Positions 937-13,116 of a DNA stretch of 30,601 nucleotides are shown here, one piece after another. Source of the stretch: a virus; the IMG/VR virus record IMGVR_UViG_3300047476_001516, positions 1 to 30,601 of that record; one strand, written 5' to 3'. The notes under the pieces were generated by a model. That model was given only the letters and a program-made list of their open reading frames with translations. It was not told the origin of the DNA and ran no database searches. A program made the translations under genes and the position numbers. Position 1 is the first letter of the stretch; every line of letters starts with the position of its first letter.

Positions 937-2723
937 ATGGCAGCTACAACTGCAAGTGGCGTTGGCGCAGCGGATCTTCCGTTGCTCGACAAAAAATGGC
1001 TCACCTTCGCATTCGCCATCTATGCTGTGTTCTACGCATGGGTACGCTGGTATGAAGGCGTCTATGGCTGGTCCGCCGGTCTCGACTCATTCGCACCCGA
1101 GTTCGAAACCTACTGGATGAACTTCCTGTACACCGAAATCGTCCTGGAAGTCGTCACCGCCTCCATCCTGTGGGGCTACATCTGGAAGTCCCGTGACCGC
1201 AACCTGGCGGCTATCACCCCGCGTGAAGAGCTGCGTCGCAACATGACCCACCTGGTCTGGCTGTTTGCTTACGCCAACGCCATCTACTGGGGCGCTTCCT
1301 ACTTCACCGAGCAGGACGGCACCTGGCATCAGACGATCGTGCGTGACACCGACTTCACCCCGTCACACATCATCGAGTTCTACCTGAGCTACCCGATCTA
1401 CATCATCACCGGCTTCGGCGCCTTCCTGTACGCCAAGACCCGTCTGCCTTTCTTCGCAGAAGGTCTGTCCCTGCCCTACCTGGTGACTGTGGTTGGTCCG
1501 TTCATGATCCTGCCGAACGTAGGTCTGAACGAATGGGGTCAAAATGGCTCCTACACTCAGTAATGAGTGTAGAAAACTGCTCTAATTGCTGGGAACTCCT
1601 ACTGGGACAATCAGCAGCCAAGCTCAGAAATGAGAAGGTTCAACGACTAGATCGCAAGATCGTACATCCAAGTGGATGGAAATGGGCAGAATCCCGTGAT
1701 GGGATTAAGATATAGTCTGGTCTTACAGGTAACTGTAAGCAGTTTCAATAAGAAACGGTATAAGAGTAACGAACTTATATGAACAAAACACATACTTTTT
1801 GGTTTCAACGTAAGCCACTTTAAGCAGTAATGTTTATAGAAAACCACTTTAATTGCTGGAAACTCCTACTGGGACAATCAGCAGCCAAGCTCAGAAATGA
1901 GAAGGTTCAACGACTAGCCGAAAGGCGTACACTCAAGCGAGTGGAAATGGGTGGGATCCTACTGGGATCAAGATATAGTCTGAACTGTATGGTAACATAC
2001 AGCAGTCCTAAAAGGACGGATAAGAATTTAGCGAATCTTATTGAACACGATGTTATGGAAGAACTTTTTGTCGCTCAATTGGGGCGCTTATAATCGCGAG
2101 ATTATAATGAAAACTCTGTGAATTCGGTGAACATCTCAATGCTGAGACAATACCGAGCCAAGCCCTGATTATAGGGAAGGTGTAACGACTATTCCGAAAG
2201 GAAGTACCATCAAGTGATGGGAAGCGCAGAGCAACTGATTGAATCAGTTGAAGAGATAGTCTGATCTATGTGGTAACGCATAGCAGTTCCTTTTGGAACG
2301 AGTAAGTATTAACGAAACTTACTGAACATTGCGCCATTGCACTATGGCTTCGTTTTCTTCGGTTAATAACTAGCCGCTTAATATAGCGATGTATTATGAA
2401 AAACTCCTTTAATTGCTGGAAACTCCCACTGGGACAATCAGCAGCCAAGCCCGAAAGGGAAGGTTCAACGACTAGCCGCAAGGCGTAGGATCAAGTGATC
2501 CGAAATGGGGAGCAACCAGAAATGGTTGAAGATATAGTCTGATCTGTGTGGCAACATGCAGCGGTTCTTAAAAAGAACGGTATAAGTATAACGAACTTAT
2601 ATGAACACATTGTGGTTAGCACTGGCGATTGCTGGAGTTCTACTCCAAGTATTTGCTAGTTTCGGTAATTTAATCGGAAAGGACATTGTTGAAGCGGTAG
2701 ATAGTGGATTGATTGCGAAGTAA
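937..2723 (+). CDS. pmoC: Particulate methane monooxygenase subunit C, split by four group I introns
   Basis: Predicted join 937-1539, 1791-1803, 2053-2075, 2334-2363, 2613-2723, giving 780 coding bases and 259 residues, the normal PmoC length. PmoC is an integral membrane subunit of the copper enzyme that oxidises methane to methanol. Exon 1 covers residues 1-201 and ends NEWG. Exon 2 supplies HTFW and the first base of F, exon 3 finishes F and gives MEELFVA, exon 4 gives [10 protein letters not shown], and exon 5 gives WLALAIAG to the end (LIAK). All copper ligands by homology to Methylococcus PmoC are present: D127, H131, H144 (CuC) and N198, H202, H216 (CuD), at a constant offset of 29. 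Unspliced translation stops at 1561. The start has AGAGG at 924-928. Exon 1 uses GC-rich, CTG-type codons; exons 2-5 use AT-rich codons like the phage genes. No pmoA or pmoB is visible. Splicing is inferred, not shown. Confidence 0.93.
1540..1790 (+). ncRNA. Group I intron 1 of pmoC (251 nt, no ORF)
   Basis: Core signatures are present: R-type GGTTCAACGACTAG at 1637-1650 and S-type AAGATATAGTCT at 1707-1718. P1 pairs exon end GGGGT with GCTCC at 1547-1551, with the expected U.G pair at the splice site. P2 is a 9-bp hairpin (CTACACTCA/TGAGTGTAG, GTAA loop) at 1551-1572. A 3-bp P10 (CAT with ATG at 1545-1547) and the spacing from a conserved GAACA seen in introns 2-4 both place the 3' splice site after 1790. 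That makes the last intron base A, not the usual G. Nearly identical in core and P9 hairpin to the intron at 8680-8930. It interrupts between G201 and copper ligand H202. Confidence 0.9.
1804..2052 (+). ncRNA. Group I intron 2 of pmoC (249 nt, no ORF)
   Basis: R element around 1904-1917 and S element AAGATATAGTCT near 1970-1981. P1: exon 2 end TGGT pairs with GCCA, with U.G at the splice site. P10: exon 3 start TTATG pairs with CGTAA immediately 5' of the P1 strand, a 5-bp match that fixes the 3' site. The intron ends in G at 2052, ten bases from the start of the conserved GAACA. It splits the phenylalanine codon between exon 2 and exon 3. A block of about 65 bases covering the P/Q and R elements is almost identical to intron 1. 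Confidence 0.92.
2076..2333 (+). ncRNA. Group I intron 3 of pmoC (258 nt, no ORF, divergent)
   Basis: The most divergent copy: R-type GGTGTAACGACTA and S-type GAGATAGTCT (about 2253-2262) are recognisable. P1: CGCT at the exon 3 end with GGCG, U.G at the splice site; P10: CCA of exon 4 with TGG. An 8-bp hairpin (TTATAATC/GATTATAA, GCGA loop) at 2089-2108 matches the P2 position of intron 1. It ends in G at 2333, again ten bases from the GAACA start. It lies two codons before copper ligand H216. Confidence 0.9.
2364..2612 (+). ncRNA. Group I intron 4 of pmoC (249 nt, no ORF)
   Basis: P1 pairs CGGT at the exon 4 end with GCCG, with U.G at the splice site. P10 pairs exon 5 start TGGTTA with TAACTA just upstream of the P1 strand (six pairs, one wobble). 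The R element GGTTCAACGACTAG and S element AAGATATAGTCT are intact. It ends in G at 2612. The 3' end (TATAAG stem, GAACA) closely matches introns 1 and 2. Splicing joins FFG to WLALAIAG in frame. Confidence 0.92.
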
Positions 2724-2743: not shown

Positions 2744-2770
2744 AAAAGGGAGCTATGCTCCCTTTTCTTT
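2744..2770. terminator. Bidirectional terminator between pmoC and the GIY-YIG gene
   Basis: A 10-bp stem AAAAGGGAGC/GCTCCCTTTT with TAT loop, followed by a T-rich tail on the plus strand and TTTTC on the minus strand. It lies 20 bases after the pmoC stop. The stop codon of the convergent endonuclease gene is in its loop, so it probably ends both transcripts. Confidence 0.85.
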
Positions 2771-3514
2771 TGTCTTTTGTTTACAATTGTCTCCGTGATA
2801 TCTTGTCATGTTGCCTCCACTGCCCACGTGTCCACAATGTGGACAAACTTTTGTTTTCATATTTCGTTTTTTAAAAACCCTATCTTTTAACCAACCTGGT
2901 TGAACATTCTCGTCAAGAACATAATAATCTTGCTCTCCGTCATTCCACCATTTAAAATCGCCTCTATCCCTCGTGTTTGCGCTTTCCGACATTTTTGCAA
3001 TAGTCTCATTGGAATACACATTCGTTCGACCTTTATTCCAAGGAACTTGTCCAGTTTTTTTGTTTTTGTTCCAAGGAGTGGAACCCTTTTTGGATCGACT
3101 CATTGTTTCGCGATATTCGTTAGTTCGTGGTGGTTTCTTTTTTCCTTTCCCCATTCTTCCTACTTCGGCCAGTTTTATTTTTGTTTCTGGTGTGTGTTTG
3201 TATCCTATTGTTCCCTCGCCTCCCTCTGTCATGTTGTATCCATTGCTATCGGGAAAATAAATGCAACTATTGAATTCTCGGATAAAATATGGTTCCATCT
3301 CTTTCAGTGTATGGATAGCATCTGATGATTGGTATATTGCTTCCCATTCAAAAGAATCCCAACCGTATTTTCTTAGACTTCTGTGAAAAACGTGATTTCC
3401 TATCTTCATCGCGGTCTTGTGTTCTGCTTGACGTTTAGGCCAATTGGAATCGTATCCTATGTAACACTTTCCTGAAATTTTGTGAGTTGCCTTATATATA
3501 GTATAAATATTCAT
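2753..3514 (-). CDS. Free-standing GIY-YIG homing endonuclease with NUMOD-type and zinc-finger regions
   Basis: A 253-residue protein. The start at 3514 is chosen over an upstream ATG at 3562 because GGAGGA precedes it and the GIY-YIG domain begins at once (MNIYTIYKATHKISGK, then CYIGYD). The catalytic pattern is visible: Y of the first motif, YIG, an arginine in the following helix (WPKRQAEH) and a glutamate in EPYFIREF. A segment GYKHTPETKIKLAEV matches the NUMOD3 style of DNA-binding motif. The C-terminus has a CPHCGHVGSGGNM...H...NC zinc-finger-like motif common in phage endonucleases. Such enzymes cut intron- or gene-less alleles to spread themselves or neighbouring introns. It sits tail-to-tail with pmoC, which carries four ORF-less introns, so it may drive their homing in trans. 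It is preceded by a structured leader shared with the other two GIY-YIG genes. Confidence 0.85.
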   Translation of the reverse strand: MNIYTIYKATHKISGKCYIGYDSNWPKRQAEHKTAMKIGNHVFHRSLRKYGWDSFEWEAIYQSSDAIHTLKEMEPYFIREFNSCIYFPDSNGYNMTEGGEGTIGYKHTPETKIKLAEVGRMGKGKKKPPRTNEYRETMSRSKKGSTPWNKNKKTGQVPWNKGRTNVYSNETIAKMSESANTRDRGDFKWWNDGEQDYYVLDENVQPGWLKDRVFKKRNMKTKVCPHCGHVGSGGNMTRYHGDNCKQKTKEKGA

Positions 3515-3583
3515 TGCTGATAGTCCTCCATAGACTGTTAGGGTAGTTAGGTGCGCTAACACCGTGAACTACACTTATTTATC
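3515..3583 (-). ncRNA. Conserved structured leader, copy A (late promoter + covarying hairpin + RBS)
   Basis: Reading on the minus strand: GATAAATA (3583-3576), AGT, outer stem GTAGTT/AACTAC, bulge CAC, inner stem GGTG/CACC, loop TTAGCG, single T, then CCTAACA and GGAGGA before ATCAGCA-ATG. Both stems are perfect and differ in sequence from those of copies B (7653-7719) and C (9971-10040), while the bulge, loop, CTAA and RBS regions are kept. The loop TTAG could pair with the downstream CTAA. Confidence 0.8.
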
Positions 3584-5095: not shown

Positions 5096-7405
5096 TTATC
5101 GTTGTTGTTTTTCTTGTTCTACTGCTCTGAGTACTTCATCTCGTAATTCTTCTGGCACAAGTTCTAACGCATCGACATCCTGACTAACAGCGATTTTGCA
5201 TAGTTCTGCATATTCTGGTAATTCTTCTGGCACAAGTTCCAACGCCCACCAAGCCTGGCTAACAGCGATTTTGCATAGCGTTGGTGTTCTTAGTTCTTCT
5301 GGCACAATTTCCAACGCATAACCGTTTTGACTAACAGCGATTTTGCATATATCTGCATATTCTGGCAATTCTTCTGGTACGTGCCGCAGTGCCTCGCCAT
5401 CTTGACTAACGGCGATTTTGCATATCTCCTCATATTCTGGCAATTCTTCTGGCACCCAATACAACGCCCAACCCTTTTGACTAACAGCAATTTTGCATAG
5501 CTTTGATGTTCGTAATTCTTCTGGCACATATTTCAACGCCAGGCCCTCATTACTAACAGCGATTTTGCATAGTTTTGCGTATTCTGGCAATTCTTCTGGC
5601 ACATATTTCAACGCCCCGCCACTTTGACTAACAGCGATTTTGTATAGTTCTGGTGTTCGTAATTTTTCTGGTACTTGATCCAGTGACAAAACTCCTTGAC
5701 TAACAGCGGCTTTGTATAATGCTGGTGTTAGCAAATATCTTGGCACATGCCTCAACGCCCAACCCTTTTGACTAACAGCGATTTCGCATATTTCTGGATA
5801 TTCTGGCAATTCTTCTGGCACAAGTTCCAACGTACGCCAATTTTGACTAACAGCGATTTTGCATAGTTCCGATGTTCTTAATTCTATTGGAACAAATTGC
5901 AACGCCCAGTCATCTTTGCTAACAGCGATTTTGCATATCTCTAAGTATTCTGGTAAGTCTTTTGGCACATATTCCAACGCCCTGCCGAAGTTACTAACAG
6001 CGCGTTTGCATAGTTCCGATGTTCTTAGTTCTTCTGGCACATATTGTAACGCCCACCCATATTGACTAACAGCGATTTTGCATAGTTTCGGTGTTATTAA
6101 TTCTTCTGGCACGTATTGCAGTGCGTCGCCACCTAGACTAACAGCGATTTTGCATAGCTTGGCATAACCAGGAGTAGTCGGTTGAACATACCCTAAGTTA
6201 TTATAATTCCGTAGAACAAGTCCCTTCAAGATTTCAAAATTTCTTCGTATATCTCTATTTGCTTGAGATATAAGTAATTTGGGATCTCTTTTCAACACAT
6301 CCAATATCACGTCTTTGTAACGATCAATAAGATTACTCGGAACATTCAGTGATAATTTTGGGTCTGTTTGAATTGCTTTATCCCATGCCGCAGGATCATT
6401 AGTGTATTCACCGGTATTTGGATCAATCAGATATTGTAAGCCCGGTGATAGACCTGATATCTCATTGATGTACATTTTCCTTACCCAAGTCGGTGCCTTT
6501 AGTGCTTGACTGGGACTTACTTTAATTTGATCGCTTATAAGATTAGGTTTTTTATTCTGAATTACTTGTAGATTTTCATCTGATAGGTCGAATACCGAGA
6601 AGTTATTGTCGGCTAAGTAACCCCCACCTTGTATGCCTTTTACCTTATCACTCAGTAATAAACTCATGATCTGAGGATGAAGTTTTTCTGATGGCTTCTG
6701 GTTATTATATGCCTTCATCTCTCCGAGATTGCCATTAGGTTCCAAAATAAAGGTAAGCAACACCTGACCGTTCTTTCTAAGACTCAGGATTCTTTGGTCA
6801 GGCTTGCTTTTTCCGGTTATATTACCACAATGCTTTCCGTACTCTCCTTCTTTCTCGCAGTAAGCCCTATCAACCCACCACCAAGCACTCCCATCAGGGA
6901 ATTTCATCAATTCATAATCGCCTTCTTGTGGTTCTATCGGTGGTAGATTATTTTTACTCTGTTTTTCACTCCAATCTTGTTCTATAGAACGTAGATCACC
7001 CATGATTTCATCATATGATTTCTTACCGAATTGATACGAATCTACTGCTGGTATATTGAAGCCAAAGAAGTGGCCAAGATCATTTTGAATTGCTTTTATA
7101 TCAGGTACTTGCTTGCCAGCCTGTTGATCAGCAAGCATATTGCCGACATTCTTCATGTACCAAACAATTTTTTCGTCCTTTTTCAAGGTAGCCTTTGCCC
7201 ACTTGAGTTGATCGGCAATCTCTTGTTGGAAATCGGGATATTTAGCCTTCATTGAAGCAATCATGCCATCGTAACTGGCTTCATCCAATTGATGCTCTTC
7301 GTATATCTTCTTACTGGATTCAACGACGAATTCATGAAACAACCGATAAGCAGTTGATTCATCATCATTCATAAGCGATTCAAGGATTTTAGTAAATTTG
7401 GACAT
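5096..7405 (-). CDS. 769-aa protein: phage N-terminal domain plus 14 DUF4116-type repeats
   Basis: Three regions. Residues 1-45 (MSKFTKILESLMNDDES..., LFHEFVVESSKKIYE) resemble the helical N-termini of T4-like phage head-associated proteins. Residues about 165-275 hold a YCEKEGEYGKHCGN motif followed by RILSLRKNGQVLLTFI and an EMKAYNNQKP segment; this C...HC arrangement is seen in a family of phage proteins of unknown function. Residues about 413-760 are 14 copies of a 22-27 residue unit with consensus CKIAVSQxxxALxxVPEEL, matching DUF4116 repeats, whose role is unknown. The repeats would form a helical solenoid suited to protein binding. A GATAAATA motif lies 22 bases upstream of the ATG, so late expression is likely; there is no clear Shine-Dalgarno. 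A virion or host-interaction role is only an inference. Confidence 0.8.
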   Translation of the reverse strand: MSKFTKILESLMNDDESTAYRLFHEFVVESSKKIYEEHQLDEASYDGMIASMKAKYPDFQQEIADQLKWAKATLKKDEKIVWYMKNVGNMLADQQAGKQVPDIKAIQNDLGHFFGFNIPAVDSYQFGKKSYDEIMGDLRSIEQDWSEKQSKNNLPPIEPQEGDYELMKFPDGSAWWWVDRAYCEKEGEYGKHCGNITGKSKPDQRILSLRKNGQVLLTFILEPNGNLGEMKAYNNQKPSEKLHPQIMSLLLSDKVKGIQGGGYLADNNFSVFDLSDENLQVIQNKKPNLISDQIKVSPSQALKAPTWVRKMYINEISGLSPGLQYLIDPNTGEYTNDPAAWDKAIQTDPKLSLNVPSNLIDRYKDVILDVLKRDPKLLISQANRDIRRNFEILKGLVLRNYNNLGYVQPTTPGYAKLCKIAVSLGGDALQYVPEELITPKLCKIAVSQYGWALQYVPEELRTSELCKRAVSNFGRALEYVPKDLPEYLEICKIAVSKDDWALQFVPIELRTSELCKIAVSQNWRTLELVPEELPEYPEICEIAVSQKGWALRHVPRYLLTPALYKAAVSQGVLSLDQVPEKLRTPELYKIAVSQSGGALKYVPEELPEYAKLCKIAVSNEGLALKYVPEELRTSKLCKIAVSQKGWALYWVPEELPEYEEICKIAVSQDGEALRHVPEELPEYADICKIAVSQNGYALEIVPEELRTPTLCKIAVSQAWWALELVPEELPEYAELCKIAVSQDVDALELVPEELRDEVLRAVEQEKQQR
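5125..6170 (-). repeat. Imperfect tandem repeats coding for the DUF4116-type units
   Basis: Fourteen units of about 66-81 bases, each containing a form of CTAACAGCGATTTTGCATA (plus strand) and an adjacent TCTTCTGGCACA. They are coding repeats, diverged in the loop positions. Confidence 0.9.
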
Positions 7406-7652: not shown

Positions 7653-7719
7653 GATAAATAAGTATGAGCCGCGACATTGGCGTGTCCGCTCATTCTAATG
7701 TCATAGGAGGACATCAGCA
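7653..7719 (+). ncRNA. Conserved structured leader, copy B
   Basis: GATAAATA (7653-7660), AGT, outer stem ATGAGC/GCTCAT (7664-7669 with 7688-7693), bulge CGC, inner stem GACA/TGTC, loop TTGGCG, single C, then TCTAATG and AGGAGG before ATCAGCA-ATG. Both stems are perfect and differ from copies A and C by compensatory changes. Loop TTGG can pair with CTAA using one G.U. Confidence 0.8.
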
Positions 7720-8601
7720 ATGCTATTTAGTACCCTAAACTGGGAGCCAGTAAAGAAAGTTCCATTATTCATTCACGATGTGAATGATATTATATCTACT
7801 TGGAAGCAATACACTCATTGGAAGAATCTTAATGATTATTGTGTATATGTTTACTTGCGAGAGGAATCCGATAAACACGGTCCGAAGTACAGCATTCGTT
7901 ACGTCGGAGAAGGACAACCTAAAAGAATAATTAGCAAAAATCATAGAGTGAGAATTCCTATAAGCGGTGAATTTATCTTCGTGGTTGATGGATTGACAAA
8001 AAAGGAAGTCAGAGATATCGAGGAAAAAATAATTCAAGTTTTCGGAAGAATATCAAAAGGAACTGGTATCTTGGAAAACCTGAAACACAAATGCGGCGGA
8101 CAAGAAGATCCAGTGCCTCCGAGAAAAAAGGAATTGTGTCAATATTGCGGCAACGAATATGCTCACCTTCAATTTCATGAACGACATTGTGACAAAAATA
8201 TTGACAGAGAATATGGAACAAAAACATATCAATACACTAAATGTCAGTATTGTGGTGACGAATTTACTATAAATCAGGCACAACAACATGAAAGAAGTTG
8301 TAAACGCAATCCTGATCCTAAACCCTCGTCGCATAAAATGTTGTCATGTAAATTTTGTGACAGAGAAGTTTTAAGTTCCGCTATGCCCCAACACGAACGA
8401 ACTTGTGCCAAGAATCCAAATAGAGTGGCTGGACCAGGCACTGGTAATACGTTTTCAAAAATTCAATGTTCTATGTGTGATAGGATGGTAGCTTACAATA
8501 ACATAGCTATTCATGAGAGAAGTTGTAAAAATAATCCAAATAGAGTTCCGGGTGTCAGATATGGTAAAACGAGTAAAAAGATAAATACATTTGCCGAATA
8601 G
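7720..8601 (+). CDS. GIY-YIG-like nuclease with four C-terminal zinc fingers
   Basis: A 293-residue protein. Residues 38-70 (YCVYVYLREES..., YSIRYVGEGQPKRI) match a GIY-YIG fold with YVG for YIG and a following arginine. An acidic helix at 93-105 (KKEVRDIEEKIIQVFGR) supplies the candidate catalytic glutamate, and GTGILENL follows as in LEM-3-like members. Residues 140-157, 175-194, 210-229 and 250-269 are four similar zinc fingers of the form CxxC...HERxC, which should bind DNA. Likely role: sequence-specific homing or mobility nuclease. The ATG follows AGGAGG and the conserved leader copy B. It stands just before a gene with an ORF-less group I intron (8680-8930), so it may act on that site in trans. 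Confidence 0.75.
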   Translation: MLFSTLNWEPVKKVPLFIHDVNDIISTWKQYTHWKNLNDYCVYVYLREESDKHGPKYSIRYVGEGQPKRIISKNHRVRIPISGEFIFVVDGLTKKEVRDIEEKIIQVFGRISKGTGILENLKHKCGGQEDPVPPRKKELCQYCGNEYAHLQFHERHCDKNIDREYGTKTYQYTKCQYCGDEFTINQAQQHERSCKRNPDPKPSSHKMLSCKFCDREVLSSAMPQHERTCAKNPNRVAGPGTGNTFSKIQCSMCDRMVAYNNIAIHERSCKNNPNRVPGVRYGKTSKKINTFAE

Positions 8602-8673
8602 GTCGGTTTATGGGGTATTAATCCACCTCGTAGGCGAATAGAACCGCCATTATAAACAAAAGGAGATAAAATC

Positions 8674-9740
8674 ATGGGTCGGCTGGCCCCGCCAGATAGT
8701 AATATCTAGTGATAACTGCTCTAATTGCTGGGAACTCCTAATGGGACAATCAGCAGCCAAGCCTCGTGAGAGGAAGGTTCAACGACTAGCCGAAAGGCGT
8801 ACACTCAAGTGAGTGGAAATGGGTAGGATCCCTCCGGGATCAAGATATAGTCTGATCTTACAGGTAACTGTAAGCAGTTTTGATTAAATCAAAGCGGTGC
8901 GGAATTAACGTCTCTGCGCGAACAACGTTGCGTCCTCTAAAAGTACAGAAGTATTCACCAGGTTCCGGGGATAACGGAACATCAACCACAGCGGGCAACG
9001 GTGTTCCGGTTCCCGTAGATATCGCTTATCCACCGTTTATTGCGATGGATCCAGGCACCGCTGTCACACCAGCTGGTAGCCTTATTACACCACCTTGGAC
9101 TGGTGTAGTCGGTGGTGTGCCAAACCCAGCAACGTCTGCTGCTTACCCTATCGTGGCCATTACTGTAAATGTAGCTCTACCTAACGGAACTGGCGCTGGT
9201 GTTGCACCGGGTGCAATTATTCGTCAGAAAGGTTCGCGCAAATATATGGTAGCTGATCTAACGCCTGTTGCAGCCACGGCCATGATTCCTGGTGCAGCTT
9301 ATATGATTGCCACTACAGGCAATACACCATGGCAATCATTTGGTGCAAGCGTTAATTATAATATTTGGGATGTATTCACTTGTACTGCCGCTGGTACTGG
9401 AACGGGTACTGCATATCTTGTGGGTTCTTGCGTTCTTGACGATACAGCTAATCCGACTGTGGGCAACATGAGTATCGGTTTCCTTGATAGCACTTCCACG
9501 GTTCAGTATATCAGCAAATTAACAAATAAATTTCTATTTGACTTTGCTGGTGGCGAGGTCGGCGGTAATGCTAATGCCGGTGATGTCTGGTCATATGAAC
9601 AGGTACAAAACAACGAACGTTGGATTGCGAACTTTTTCACTGATGATGGATACATGGTCAAGTCTGGCACAAGTGGTGGTCCGAATACACCCGGCCAACA
9701 AAACCAAGTTCCGATGGGAGATGTGGATTCTTATACCTAA
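8674..9740 (+). CDS. Phage structural protein, start codon separated by a group I intron
   Basis: Predicted join 8674-8679, 8931-9740: exon 1 is only ATG GGT, exon 2 continues with CGT CCT, giving MGRPLKVQ and a 271-residue protein. Exon 1 carries the ribosome-binding site (AGGAG at 8661-8665); exon 2 has none, so the gene needs splicing to be translated. Unspliced translation from 8674 stops after 11 codons. The mature sequence is glycine, alanine, threonine and proline rich with repeated beta-type strands, and an MGRPL start is typical of T4-like phage structural proteins. No enzyme motif. It is probably a head-decoration or fibre-associated virion protein. A splice site three bases earlier (adding L) is also in frame. 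Confidence 0.75.
8680..8930 (+). ncRNA. Group I intron 5, after codon 2 of the structural gene (251 nt, no ORF)
   Basis: It carries the same P/Q block (CTAATTGCTGGGAACTCCTA), R element GGTTCAACGACTAG and S element AAGATATAGTCT as the pmoC introns. P1 pairs exon end GGGT with GCCC, with U.G at the splice site; P2 is AGATA-GTAA-TATCT. The P9 hairpin CTTACAGGTAACTGTAAG is identical to that of pmoC intron 1, its closest relative. The 3' end has a P9.2 stem and GAACA, then G at 8930 (or 8927). The same length as pmoC intron 1. Confidence 0.88.
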
Positions 9741-9970: not shown

Positions 9971-10040
9971 GATAAATAGAAGTACCGATCGCGATATTGA
10001 CGTATCCATCGGTTCTAACGCTTTAGAGGAGCAATCAGCG
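9971..10040 (+). ncRNA. Conserved structured leader, copy C
   Basis: GATAAATA (9971-9978), outer stem ACCGAT/ATCGGT (9984-9989 with 10008-10013), bulge CGC, inner stem GATA/TATC, loop TTGACG, single C, then TCTAACG and GAGGAG before ATCAGCG-ATG. The stems differ from copies A and B but remain perfectly paired. Here the following ATG opens a 40-codon frame and not the endonuclease itself. Confidence 0.8.
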
Positions 10041-10163
10041 ATGATATTTATTATCTCGGTCAATCGACCCGAAAATTCTCCTATTGGCGTTGCCATAATC
10101 AACAAAGGAGAACTTCAATGGCAACTAAAAAATCAAAAACACCTGTCTACTATACCTATCTGA
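10041..10163 (+). CDS. Short upstream ORF (40 aa) overlapping the endonuclease start
   Basis: The ATG at 10041 has exactly the position relative to leader copy C that the endonuclease ATGs have relative to copies A and B, with the same GAGGA site, so it is probably translated. The product (MIFIISVNRPENSPIGVAII...) has no domain. It overlaps the start of the gene at 10118 in another frame, which suggests a leader peptide, translational coupling, or a relic of a gene replaced by the endonuclease. Confidence 0.45.
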   Translation: MIFIISVNRPENSPIGVAIINKGELQWQLKNQKHLSTIPI

Positions 10164-11224
10164 TAGGGTGGTCTTGGCTTAATACTTGGTATTATGGAAG
10201 CAAATATTCTAAAAATGCCGACCCAGAATTATTCTGGAAGAAATACTTCACATCAAGTAAACACGTAAAGCGATTTCGTGAACAACACGGCGAACCTGAT
10301 GTAATTCAAGTCAGACATACCTTCAACTGTCCTATTAAAACACTTGCTTGGGAAGGCAAAGTTCACAAACGCATGGGTTGTCGGTTGAGTTCACGGTGGC
10401 TAAATGCGGCCGATGCTAATGTCAAGTGGAACACCGCCGGTATGTTCAACGTAAAAGATAATTTAAATAATATTTTTCAAGTATCAGTGAATGATTTTAG
10501 ATATCTATCTGGTGAACTCAGGGGCATATTAAGTGATAGAGTAACTGTGCAGGATAAGTCTGGTAAAACGATGTCAGTGTCGGTGTCTGACGAAAAATAT
10601 ATATCAGGAGAGTGTATCAGTATCAATAAGGGAAAAATTCCGGTAAAAGATAAGGATGGGAAATCATCACAAGTGACGAGAGATGATTTTAGGTGGGTAT
10701 CTGGAGAACTCGTTCACGTCACTAAAGGTACTGTAAACGTGTTGGATAAAGATGGCAATAATATTAGAATAAAAAAAGACGATCCACGATTGTTGTCGGG
10801 TGAATTGACAGGGATCGTCAAAGGAACTATTGTAGTTATGGACAAAGATGGCAATAAATTCAGAGTATCTAAGGATGATTCTAGGTGGATATCCGGCGAG
10901 TTAAAAGCATTGTCTTCTAATACAGTGATGATCAGAGACAAAGATGGAAGTGCGATCAGGGTGTCAAAGGACGATCCACGGTGGGTATCGGGCGAGATGA
11001 CGGCAATCGCCAAAGGCAAGGTGAATGTTATCGACAGAGATGGAAATAAGTTTATGGTATCAAAGGATGATCCTCGATGGTTATCGGGTGAATTGATAGC
11101 ACTATCTACAAATTCCGTTGTGGTAAAGGATAAGTTCGGGAATAAATTTAGAGTATCAAAAGATGATCCTCGATGGTTATCGGGTGAAGTTGTAGGAGTA
11201 AATAAGAAAAATTGGCCCTGTTGA
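10118..11224 (+). CDS. GIY-YIG-like endonuclease with eight C-terminal DPRWLSGEL repeats
   Basis: A 368-residue protein. Residues 10-105 (YYTYLIGWSWLNTWYYGSKY, YFTSSKHVKRFREQHGEPD, WEGKVHKRM, RWLN) match a GIY-YIG-type domain common in T4-like phage mobile endonucleases, with YLIG/YYG for the two motifs and E80 as the candidate metal-binding residue. Residues about 111-362 are eight units of about 30 residues with consensus VxDKDGNxFRVSKDDPRWLSGEL, which are probable DNA-binding modules like the NUMOD-type repeats of homing enzymes. Start chosen for AAAGGAG nine bases upstream. It ends at a terminator that is a near copy of the one before it at 9760, so the cassette is flanked by direct repeats. 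Confidence 0.75.
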   Translation: MATKKSKTPVYYTYLIGWSWLNTWYYGSKYSKNADPELFWKKYFTSSKHVKRFREQHGEPDVIQVRHTFNCPIKTLAWEGKVHKRMGCRLSSRWLNAADANVKWNTAGMFNVKDNLNNIFQVSVNDFRYLSGELRGILSDRVTVQDKSGKTMSVSVSDEKYISGECISINKGKIPVKDKDGKSSQVTRDDFRWVSGELVHVTKGTVNVLDKDGNNIRIKKDDPRLLSGELTGIVKGTIVVMDKDGNKFRVSKDDSRWISGELKALSSNTVMIRDKDGSAIRVSKDDPRWVSGEMTAIAKGKVNVIDRDGNKFMVSKDDPRWLSGELIALSTNSVVVKDKFGNKFRVSKDDPRWLSGEVVGVNKKNWPC

Positions 11225-11279: not shown

Positions 11280-11849
11280 ATGAACACAGCATTTGTATTG
11301 GGTAATGGTATCAGTCGGAAAAGTTTGGATTTAACTCAAATCAAAACAAAAGGAAAATTATATGGGTGCAATTCTCTTTATACTGAAATTATTCCCGATG
11401 TATTGGTGGCTACCGATAAACTGATTGCCGATAAAATACAAAATAGTGAATATGCTTTGAAGAATAGATTTTATACACGAAGACCAATTATTGGGTTGGG
11501 TGGTAAAACAGTTCTTCACCATACATTTAGTTCTGGGCCAAATGCAGTTGCGATTGCTATTGATGATAGATGCACGACGATCTATTTACTTGGTTTTGAT
11601 ATGGGACCAGATGATAAAAATGAATTTAATAACATTTATGCTGGTACTGAATTTTACAAAGCGATTGGTTCATCACCCACGTATGCTGGAAATTGGGTTA
11701 AGCAACTTACTCAGATAATGCAGACAAGTCATGAGTGTAATTTTATTCGCGTTTATGGGCATACAACCGCTATTATACCAGAATTGAACTTAATTAAAAA
11801 TCTATCGCATATCACTATACAGGAATTCTTGACTTTTGCCAAGAAATGA
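11280..11849 (+). CDS. Rossmann-like phage protein, 189 aa, function unknown
   Basis: The N-terminus TAFVLGNGISRKSLDL and the following YGCNSLYTEIIPDVLVATD resemble a family of phage and bacterial proteins related to sialyltransferase-like or MptE-like (DUF115) Rossmann domains, in which a GNG loop follows the first strand. Later features are an SSGPNAVAIAI segment and IYLLGFDMG strand. If the relation is real it could modify a surface glycan or nucleotide, but the sequence does not decide this. There is no good ribosome-binding site before 11280. It is followed after 10 bases by tnpB. Confidence 0.6.
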   Translation: MNTAFVLGNGISRKSLDLTQIKTKGKLYGCNSLYTEIIPDVLVATDKLIADKIQNSEYALKNRFYTRRPIIGLGGKTVLHHTFSSGPNAVAIAIDDRCTTIYLLGFDMGPDDKNEFNNIYAGTEFYKAIGSSPTYAGNWVKQLTQIMQTSHECNFIRVYGHTTAIIPELNLIKNLSHITIQEFLTFAKK

Positions 11850-11855
11850 TAAATA
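11848..11855 (+). promoter_or_regulatory. GATAAATA motif 4 bases before tnpB
   Basis: The octamer overlaps the stop of the preceding gene and ends four bases before the tnpB ATG. Transcription from it would give an almost leaderless message, so it may be coincidental. Confidence 0.3.
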
Positions 11856-11859
11856 ATAG

Positions 11860-13116
11860 ATGATTTTTAAATCTTTCAAATATCGCCTATATCCAAATGT
11901 GGCCCAACAAGAGCAGATGATAAAGACATTTGGGTGTAAACGACTAATATTCAATCATCTACTTGATACACAAATCAAGAGATATGAATCGGGTGAAGGA
12001 AATCTTACTTACTTCGGATGTAATAATCTGATTGTGGAATGGAAGAAGGAAGAAGAAAAAGCATTTTTGACAGAAGTAGATAGTCAAGCACTTCAGCAAG
12101 CAGCAAAAGACTTGCACGATGCCTATACTAACTTCTTCAAATCACTGAGCGGCAAGAGGAAAGGGACTAAAATTAATAGCCCTAAATTCAAATCCAAGTA
12201 TGCACGTCAGAGCTATCGTACCCCAAATAATAATGGAACGATTAAATTCAAAGATGATTCTTTGAGATTGCCAACTTTGGGTTATGTAAGAGCAGTTATT
12301 GACAGGAATATAGAGGGAAAAATTAAATCGGCTACTATCTCCATGGATAGAGATGGCAAATTTTATGTATCTGTTTTGGTTGAAACGGAACAGAAACTAT
12401 TATCAATGACTGGCAAGGAAGTCGGCATTGATTTAGGGATTAAGGATTTATTTGTTACATCAGATGGCAATAGATTCGATAATCCAAAAGACTTAATTCG
12501 TATGACAAAAACCACGCAACGAATTAAGTTGTTGCAGAAAAAGTTGGCAAGAACAAGAAAAGGCAGTAAGAGCAGAGAAAAGCTACGAATTCAATTGGCA
12601 TCTGCATATAAGAGGTTAACCAATCAAAGAAACAACTATTATCATGAAATCAGTCATTGGTTGGTTAATTCGTATGATGCAATTTATGCGGAAGATTTGA
12701 ATGTGAAAGGAATGATGGCTAATAGAAAACTATCAAGAGCTATTCATGAATCTTCATGGGCCACTTTGGTGGGAATGATTCAATATAAATGCGAGTGGTA
12801 TGGAAAAACATTTTATCAAATCAATCGCTATTATCCATCTTCAAAGACTTGTTCTTGTTGCAGCAATAAAATAGAAAAATTGTCATTATCCGAACGTGAA
12901 TGGAAGTGCCCATCTTGTGGCACATTACACGATAGAGACTATAATGCAGCGATAAATATCCTCAAAGAAGGACAAAAAGACTTATATAGCACTTCGTTGG
13001 TCCGACGCGAAGCGGGCGAAATAATCGTCCCGTCAGCTCTAGTGAAATTGAGTAGTAAAACCGAGAGGTCTGATTCGTTGAAATCAGTTGCTCAAGGGAC
13101 AGAGTTAGTTTATTAA
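11860..13116 (+). CDS. tnpB: IS605-family TnpB, RNA-guided nuclease, without TnpA
   Basis: A 418-residue protein with the whole TnpB architecture: N-terminal FKSFKYRLYPN region, central wedge/REC part, RuvC motifs with D191 (GIDLG), E278 (YAEDLNV) and D360 (HDRDYNAAINI), and a zinc ribbon CSCC...CPSC (C331, C334, C350, C353). All catalytic residues are intact. TnpB proteins are known RNA-guided DNA nucleases that use an omega RNA from their own 3' end and favour transposon retention. No tnpA is present, the gene starts 10 bases after the previous stop and the next gene starts 37 bases after its own, so there is little room for transposon ends. It may act as a stand-alone homing-type gene. The start lacks a clear Shine-Dalgarno. 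Confidence 0.92.
   Translation: MIFKSFKYRLYPNVAQQEQMIKTFGCKRLIFNHLLDTQIKRYESGEGNLTYFGCNNLIVEWKKEEEKAFLTEVDSQALQQAAKDLHDAYTNFFKSLSGKRKGTKINSPKFKSKYARQSYRTPNNNGTIKFKDDSLRLPTLGYVRAVIDRNIEGKIKSATISMDRDGKFYVSVLVETEQKLLSMTGKEVGIDLGIKDLFVTSDGNRFDNPKDLIRMTKTTQRIKLLQKKLARTRKGSKSREKLRIQLASAYKRLTNQRNNYYHEISHWLVNSYDAIYAEDLNVKGMMANRKLSRAIHESSWATLVGMIQYKCEWYGKTFYQINRYYPSSKTCSCCSNKIEKLSLSEREWKCPSCGTLHDRDYNAAINILKEGQKDLYSTSLVRREAGEIIVPSALVKLSSKTERSDSLKSVAQGTELVY

Follow-up and report, generated by a model that had tools for sequence, protein, structure and literature searches.

RNA-OUT of IS10/Tn10 is a short stable hairpin RNA that is encoded opposite the transposase gene and overlaps the ribosome-binding site of that gene. 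RNA-IN and RNA-OUT of IS10 are a subject of PMC5006887. Hairpins at the ribosome-binding site with overlapping late promoters are found in the phage genes for T4 I-TevI, SegB and Aeh1 MobE (PMC2988022, PMC3014915). Among phages, the closest parallel to an antisense RNA that runs opposite the gene of a homing endonuclease is, as far as the citing paper describes it, CfrI of the T4-like cyanophage S-PM2 (Millard 2010, cited in PMC2984593). CfrI is given there as about 225 nt long and linking the endonuclease gene to psbA, and a conserved two-hairpin module does not figure in that description.

The window analyzed here is a stretch of viral DNA of 30,601 nt (IMG/VR record IMGVR_UViG_3300047476_001516, positions 1 to 30,601). 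A sequence-only reading of it had proposed three copies of a covarying RNA leader, and these exist at 3515-3583 (-), 7653-7719 (+) and 9971-10040 (+), with every feature that had been described; a pattern combining the promoter, bulge, loop and CTAA matches the window exactly three times and gives no match in 100 shuffles (Table 1). We consider it reasonably likely that each copy is a portable module of about 75 bp, in which a late promoter and a ribosome-binding site are overlapped by the gene of an antisense RNA that limits translation of the endonuclease. As with I-TevI, SegB and MobE, the genes concerned encode homing endonucleases, and TATAAATA-type late promoters lie beside an RNA structure over the ribosome-binding site. 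Those hairpins fold on the mRNA, whereas the selected fold of the module appears to lie on the antisense strand, and the module, unlike them, is common to GIY-YIG, HNH and other nucleases. With IS10 RNA-OUT it has in common a structured RNA encoded opposite a mobile-element gene, over the ribosome-binding site and start region; it differs in forming two hairpins where RNA-OUT forms one, in its late promoters of gp55 type and its lack of an Rfam match, and in being present on many unrelated endonuclease families, as against one transposase for RNA-OUT. By analogy, IS10 RNA-OUT is most likely the system that the module resembles most in the way it works.

Table 1. Positions of the module parts and of the genes that they precede, in window coordinates.
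Feature	Positions	Strand	Basis
Copy A sense late promoter GATAAATA of endonuclease gene	3576..3583	-	sequence; NATAAATA strand bias
Copy A predicted antisense RNA, 5'-GCUGAUAGUCC...	3516..3575	+	covariation, wobble asymmetry
Copy A predicted antisense RNA parts	SL1 3517-3541; linker 3542; SL2 3543-3572; tail 3573-3583		
Copy A antisense late promoter motif TATAAATA, inside endonuclease codons 2-5	3502..3509	+	sequence; fixed spacing across copies
Copy A GIY-YIG/NUMOD3 homing endonuclease, ATG at 3514-3512	2753..3514	-	Pfam, PHROG
Copy B sense late promoter GATAAATA	7653..7660	+	pattern match
Copy B predicted antisense RNA	7661..7718	-	model R2, fold
Copy B predicted antisense RNA parts	SL1 7717-7695; linker 7694; SL2 7693-7664; tail to 7653		
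Copy B antisense promoter motif ACTAAATA, in codons 2-4	7724..7731	-	sequence
Copy B endonuclease-like gene, Y-V-Y...Y-V-G core and C2HC zinc fingers	7720..8601	+	PHROG, zf-C2HC_2
Copy C sense late promoter GATAAATA	9971..9978	+	pattern match
Copy C predicted antisense RNA	9979..10039	-	R2 76.3 bits
Copy C predicted antisense RNA parts	SL1 10038-10015; linker 10014; SL2 10013-9984; tail to 9971		
Copy C antisense promoter motif AATAAATA	10045..10052	-	sequence
Copy C 40-aa ORF, opened by the module's ATG, overlapping endonuclease start	10041..10163	+	
Copy C endonuclease-like gene, Y-T-Y-L-I-G-W...Y-Y-G-S-K, with repeats	10118..11224	+	PHROG

In order to collect relatives, we scanned viral contigs with six patterns. 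The first scan yielded 83 stretches, and five more with altered promoter, loop or stem patterns raised the number to at least 288 distinct module copies. An unbiased sample of 143 distinct copies comes from a scan that put no constraint on promoter, loop or downstream gene; because most copies were found by pattern, loop and promoter frequencies outside this sample are biased. The copies are also related to each other, and therefore pair counts are not independent events. TAAATA lies upstream in all 143 copies of the unbiased sample, and an endonuclease-like ORF then follows in nearly all of them. A blastn search of cultured phages returned a single weak match (E 0.7), which proved real, and two divergent copies are present in cultured phages, Rhizobium RHph_I1_18 (at 80289-80374, upstream of EVB91_137) and Pseudoalteromonas vB_Psh_XG4. 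No module was found in the searched regions of T4, Sinorhizobium phiM12 and phiN3, Synechococcus S-SRM01 and S-N03, Serratia 92A1, Burkholderia BcepSauron and BcepSaruman, and two further Rhizobium phages, and bacterial and archaeal genomes gave no match for the commonest stem class. The motif had originally not been recognised as a described riboswitch or ribozyme, in agreement with Rfam cmscan, which up to E=5 called no family, including RNA-OUT, riboswitches and ribozymes, at any of the three window copies. As no description of the module was found in the open-access literature searched either, it is apparently an RNA family not previously described.

The proteins encoded behind the module belong to several unrelated nuclease families. 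Matches of 60 module-bearing proteins include GIY-YIG, SegE and I-TevI types, HNH, HNH_3, HNH_4, HNH_5, DUF723, DUF559, DUF7487 and PvuRts1I-like families, and many of these proteins carry NUMOD3 DNA-binding repeats. The leader had been described as shared by three GIY-YIG genes: three endonuclease loci do share it, but GIY-YIG is clear only for copy A (PF01541 4.2e-5, PF07460 1.2e-4, phrog_314 1e-26), and specificity for GIY-YIG is lost, given that the module also fronts HNH and other unrelated families. Copies B and C have PHROG matches in common with other endonucleases. The copy B protein matches zf-C2HC_2 (3.1e-9) and phrog_15526 (2.1e-6), the latter also matched by 12 of the 60 module-bearing endonucleases, and has no Pfam nuclease match; the copy C protein matches the HNH endonuclease family phrog_12434 (1.9e-55), with no nuclease domain by Pfam. 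Judged by these matches, one module is common to homing endonucleases of unrelated families.

The motif GATAAATA, at first counted as a piece of the RNA fold, is instead a late promoter. In two carrier phages, no 7-mer upstream of ORFs shows a greater strand bias than NATAAATA (sense v antisense 18 v 1, and 43 v 13). It lies 17-27 nt before baseplate wedge and other virion structural genes and is also found upstream of tail sheath and tube genes, and gp55-like late sigma homologues are present in 7 of 11 carrier genomes (phrog_12791 E=4.3e-72). On account of the strand bias, the positions at structural genes and the late sigma homologues, we take GATAAATA to be the T4/gp55-type late promoter of the endonuclease. 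A spacer of 5 nt separates it from the hairpin in 216 of the 288 copies, among the matches listed. About ten genes of two carrier phages, G008 and G007 (L087-L104), have their start codon exactly 5 nt after NATAAATA, which would give leaderless late mRNAs starting at AUG.

A TATTTAT that mirrors GATAAATA after the start codon had been overlooked. It sits 5 nt from the predicted first base of the antisense RNA. Relative to the reading frame of the first codons, TATTTA takes three registers, and 191 of 270 ordinary copies have a TATTTA-type core 5 nt from CAGC. With the start codon moved upstream (ATGTCCAGC), 10 of 11 copies keep exactly 5 nt from CAGC to TATTTA, while the distance from ATG to TATTTA is about 14, as compared with 3-5 elsewhere. 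The position of TATTTA is by all appearances tied to the start of the predicted antisense RNA and not to the start codon. Among 72 related endonucleases in which no module was recognised, 10 have TATTTA at this place, and several of these are divergent modules. The antisense promoter motif is kept regardless of the orientation of neighbouring genes; about a quarter of the motifs lack the full ATAAATA, and the Pseudoalteromonas copy has no TAAATA at the expected places.

Late-promoter motifs are seen elsewhere in the window. One stands 23 nt before the ATG of a gene of many DUF4116 repeats at 5096-7405 (-) (E 9.6e-70), and ATAAATA at 11849-11855 lies just upstream of a TnpB-like gene (OrfB_IS605, Cas12f1-like TNB) at 11860-13116 (+). 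Downstream of a GATAAATA at 8580-8587 (+) come a match to freshwater-2 RNA that lies below the threshold (RF02980, 8592-8676, E 2.5e-4) and begins about where a late transcript from this GATAAATA would start, and then a group I intron at 8670-8874 (+). The region 937-2620 (+) carries an AmoC/PmoC gene (PF04896, E 7.6e-101) and then four tandem Rfam group I introns (1530-1739, 1794-2002, 2066-2283 and 2354-2561) with short exon-like pieces between them, and thus has the appearance of a gene for a methane/ammonia monooxygenase subunit that is interrupted by four introns.

The proposal of a selected RNA structure at the three endonuclease loci is borne out by covariation with more homologues: in 41 distinct relatives, 125 pair cells are doubly changed yet paired, against a shuffle mean of 35.3, and none of 500 shuffles is as high. 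The same proposal placed the folded leader on the mRNA, and here it is contradicted, because the wobble pairs sit on the antisense strand. In the first 41 copies, P1/P2 pairs never pass through a sense G.U, and sense A.C mismatches are common. With any mismatch type allowed, 140 distinct P1 hairpins contain, as read on the sense strand, 1356 Watson-Crick pairs, 41 A.C and no G.U; all 194 distinct P1 hairpins contain 1882 Watson-Crick pairs, 46 A.C and 5 G.U. A sense A.C is an antisense G.U, so that the antisense strand has 46 G.U and 5 A.C in P1, and the strand on which intermediates are tolerated, as G.U pairs, is the one opposite the endonuclease. The A.C:G.U asymmetry is found in both orientations of the hairpin tip (15:0 and 25:0) and is the same for all orientations of neighbouring genes. 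The supposed C(G/A)C bulge is in fact an R-Y base pair between two single-base bulges, and this middle pair (CGC/C 138, CAC/C 34, CAC/T 22 and CGC/T 0 in the 194 hairpins) has the same strand signature in its 34 CAC/C as against no CGC/T.

Comparison of the two strands as folded RNAs gives a similar picture. In a gapless antisense alignment of 45 rows, 97.3% of cells are paired (741 Watson-Crick, 91 G.U and 7 A.C cells), with 129 double changes versus 29.7 in shuffles. Of 264 copies, 242 have an antisense fold more stable than the sense fold, and minimum free energy structures pair the GCUGA start in 261 cases on the antisense strand versus 11 on the sense strand. We also built R2, a covariance model of the antisense strand from which both cultured-phage members were left out; E-values of such home-made models are rough. 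RHph_I1_18 scores 53.2 bits with R2 versus 40.9 with a sense model, and vB_Psh_XG4 42.2 versus 23.7. The case is strong, on comparative sequence grounds, that the selected structure lies on the strand opposite the endonuclease gene.

In the predicted antisense RNA, SL1 is one long hairpin (CUGA-N...N-UUAG) that includes the complements of CTAA and TCAG; its loop is complementary to the Shine-Dalgarno sequence, which the hairpin covers in essentially all copies. This second covarying hairpin, with the Shine-Dalgarno sequence in its loop, had gone unnoticed in the sequence-only reading. After one linker base follows SL2, an 11-bp hairpin with two bulged G. Owing to the wobble pairs, the hairpin would be strong on the antisense RNA and weak on the mRNA, to which the ribosome has to bind. 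Copy A folds at -20.3 kcal/mol (z -2.6; 66.6 bits with R2) and copy B at -19.2 kcal/mol (z -3.4, none of 200 shuffles as low; 72.5 bits), and the single-sequence minimum free energy structure of copy C is a different fold from the consensus. The outer helix of SL1 is altered in RHph_I1_18 and vB_Psh_XG4 (by inspection: GCUGG/CUAG, GGUGG/CUAC), and its G.U is kept at the same position in both. No terminator was called at copy A, and the terminator-like, U-rich tail has about the same T content as other late promoters when these are read in reverse (0.568 v 0.560). In some variants (L129, L165, L221, L235, L268 and L018) the start codon lies within SL1 (ATGTCCAGC), so that the N-terminus of the endonuclease reads M-S-S.

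The six-base TTRRCG loop first described holds for the window copies but is one class among many: TTGGCG accounts for 52 of the 143 unbiased copies, and others in this sample include TGGGGA, CGGGAA, GTGGAA and inverted CGNYAA. The tip of SL2 occurs in both orientations (TTGGCG and CGCCAA; e.g. L011, L070, L101), as if flipped by template switching, although the strand of the wobble pairs never flips. Three further candidates were rejected: TTRRCG as a recognition loop, since most variants differ or are inverted; a loop-CTAA pseudoknot (UUAG/CUAA), which fails with TTGACG loops, CTAA pairing instead with TCAG on the antisense strand; and an attC-like, ribozyme or riboswitch identity, for which Rfam has no match.

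Since the antisense hairpins lie over the ribosome-binding site, the endonuclease genes probably carry a portable antisense-RNA brake. From these patterns we infer antisense transcription, pairing with the mRNA, repression and its benefit. The gene strand of the module would provide the late promoter, of gp55 type (NATAAATA), together with the Shine-Dalgarno sequence and the start codon. On the opposite strand, a late promoter of its own within the first endonuclease codons would produce an antisense RNA that is short (about 60-75 nt) and structured, starting at GCUGA about 6 nt downstream of this promoter and running through SL1 with its anti-Shine-Dalgarno loop and SL2 to the U-rich tail, near which it presumably ends. 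The convergent late promoters, about 60 bp apart, would thus yield both the mRNA of the endonuclease and an RNA complementary to the entire 5' UTR of this mRNA. The two RNAs would probably pair first through the loop and then over their full length, which would block ribosome binding, and the facing promoters may add transcriptional interference. The benefit would be restraint of a DNA-cutting enzyme.

A T4-type mRNA switch, by which read-through (early) transcripts would pair GATAAATA with TATTTATC after the start codon and hide the ribosome-binding site while late transcripts start downstream and are translated, seems unlikely to us. The same logic is documented for I-TevI, segB and mobE (PMC2988022), the late promoter overlaps the 5' arm at the edge of the structure, the Shine-Dalgarno sequence lies in a hairpin loop, and TAAATA and TATTTA are complementary. 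However, the ribosome-binding site is not predicted to be hidden only in read-through transcripts: the predicted exposure of the Shine-Dalgarno sequence is equal (late 0.55 v read-through 0.54), and the closing stem would form in under a quarter of read-through transcripts. Nor does this stem covary, as CTAAATA copies have TATTTAT in 14 cases, TATTTAC in 7, TATTTAA in 2 and TATTTAG in none, and the set of 140 P1 hairpins lacks sense-strand wobble pairs. A P0 stem of GATAAATA and TATTTATC closing an mRNA three-way junction looked convincing in the first 52 copies and failed with the CTAAATA copies and thermodynamics.

The antisense fold could instead belong to transcripts of neighbouring genes, as a 5' UTR, stabiliser or processing site, or its promoter could serve a displaced host gene. 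In 80 of 175 insertions the genes on both sides run antiparallel, and T4 endonuclease genes contain promoters for downstream genes (PMC2988022). Yet the antisense promoter motif and the wobble asymmetry are equally kept where both neighbours are parallel (53 copies), and several antiparallel neighbours have an apparent -35/-10 and Shine-Dalgarno sequence of their own between module and gene. As nothing depends on the orientation of the neighbours, we regard such a role as no more probable than the mRNA switch.

Slightly less credible still is folded single-stranded DNA of the bottom strand as a recognition or recombination site for gaining or swapping the module: G.T wobble in DNA would produce an identical asymmetry, the hairpin tips are seen either way round and unrelated genes carry the same module, but promoter motifs at fixed spacing on both strands and the position of the ribosome-binding site are left unexplained, and the orientation of the module relative to its neighbours is mixed. 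We give equally little weight to a trans-acting RNA (an anti-Shine-Dalgarno decoy, ribozyme or protein-binding RNA) that overlaps the endonuclease incidentally, since, for all the likeness of CUCCUU-like SL1 loops to the 16S rRNA 3' end and the conservation of the bulged G residues, nearly every copy stands at the start of an endonuclease gene, a clear solo copy was not found (L295 being one degenerate exception) and Rfam has no ribozyme or riboswitch match.

An extension of the antisense-RNA brake, conceivable but doubtful, is that the module moves freely as a cassette, acquired by unrelated endonucleases through recombination, and that its variable loops, including the inverted tips, act as tags in the manner of plasmid incompatibility, each RNA silencing its own endonuclease and not the neighbour's. 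An SL2 loop is common to 1 of 29 within-genome pairs as compared with 12% between genomes, a difference that is suggestive and not significant.

If the antisense-RNA brake is true, the module would represent a large RNA family and a common control system for selfish endonucleases of unrelated descent. Strand-specific wobble would allow a single DNA segment to specify a structured RNA with one of its strands while the ribosome-binding site on the other stays open. The divergent copies in cultured phages make the module testable, and such a system would bear on how homing endonucleases spare the phages that carry them and on why they are expressed late.
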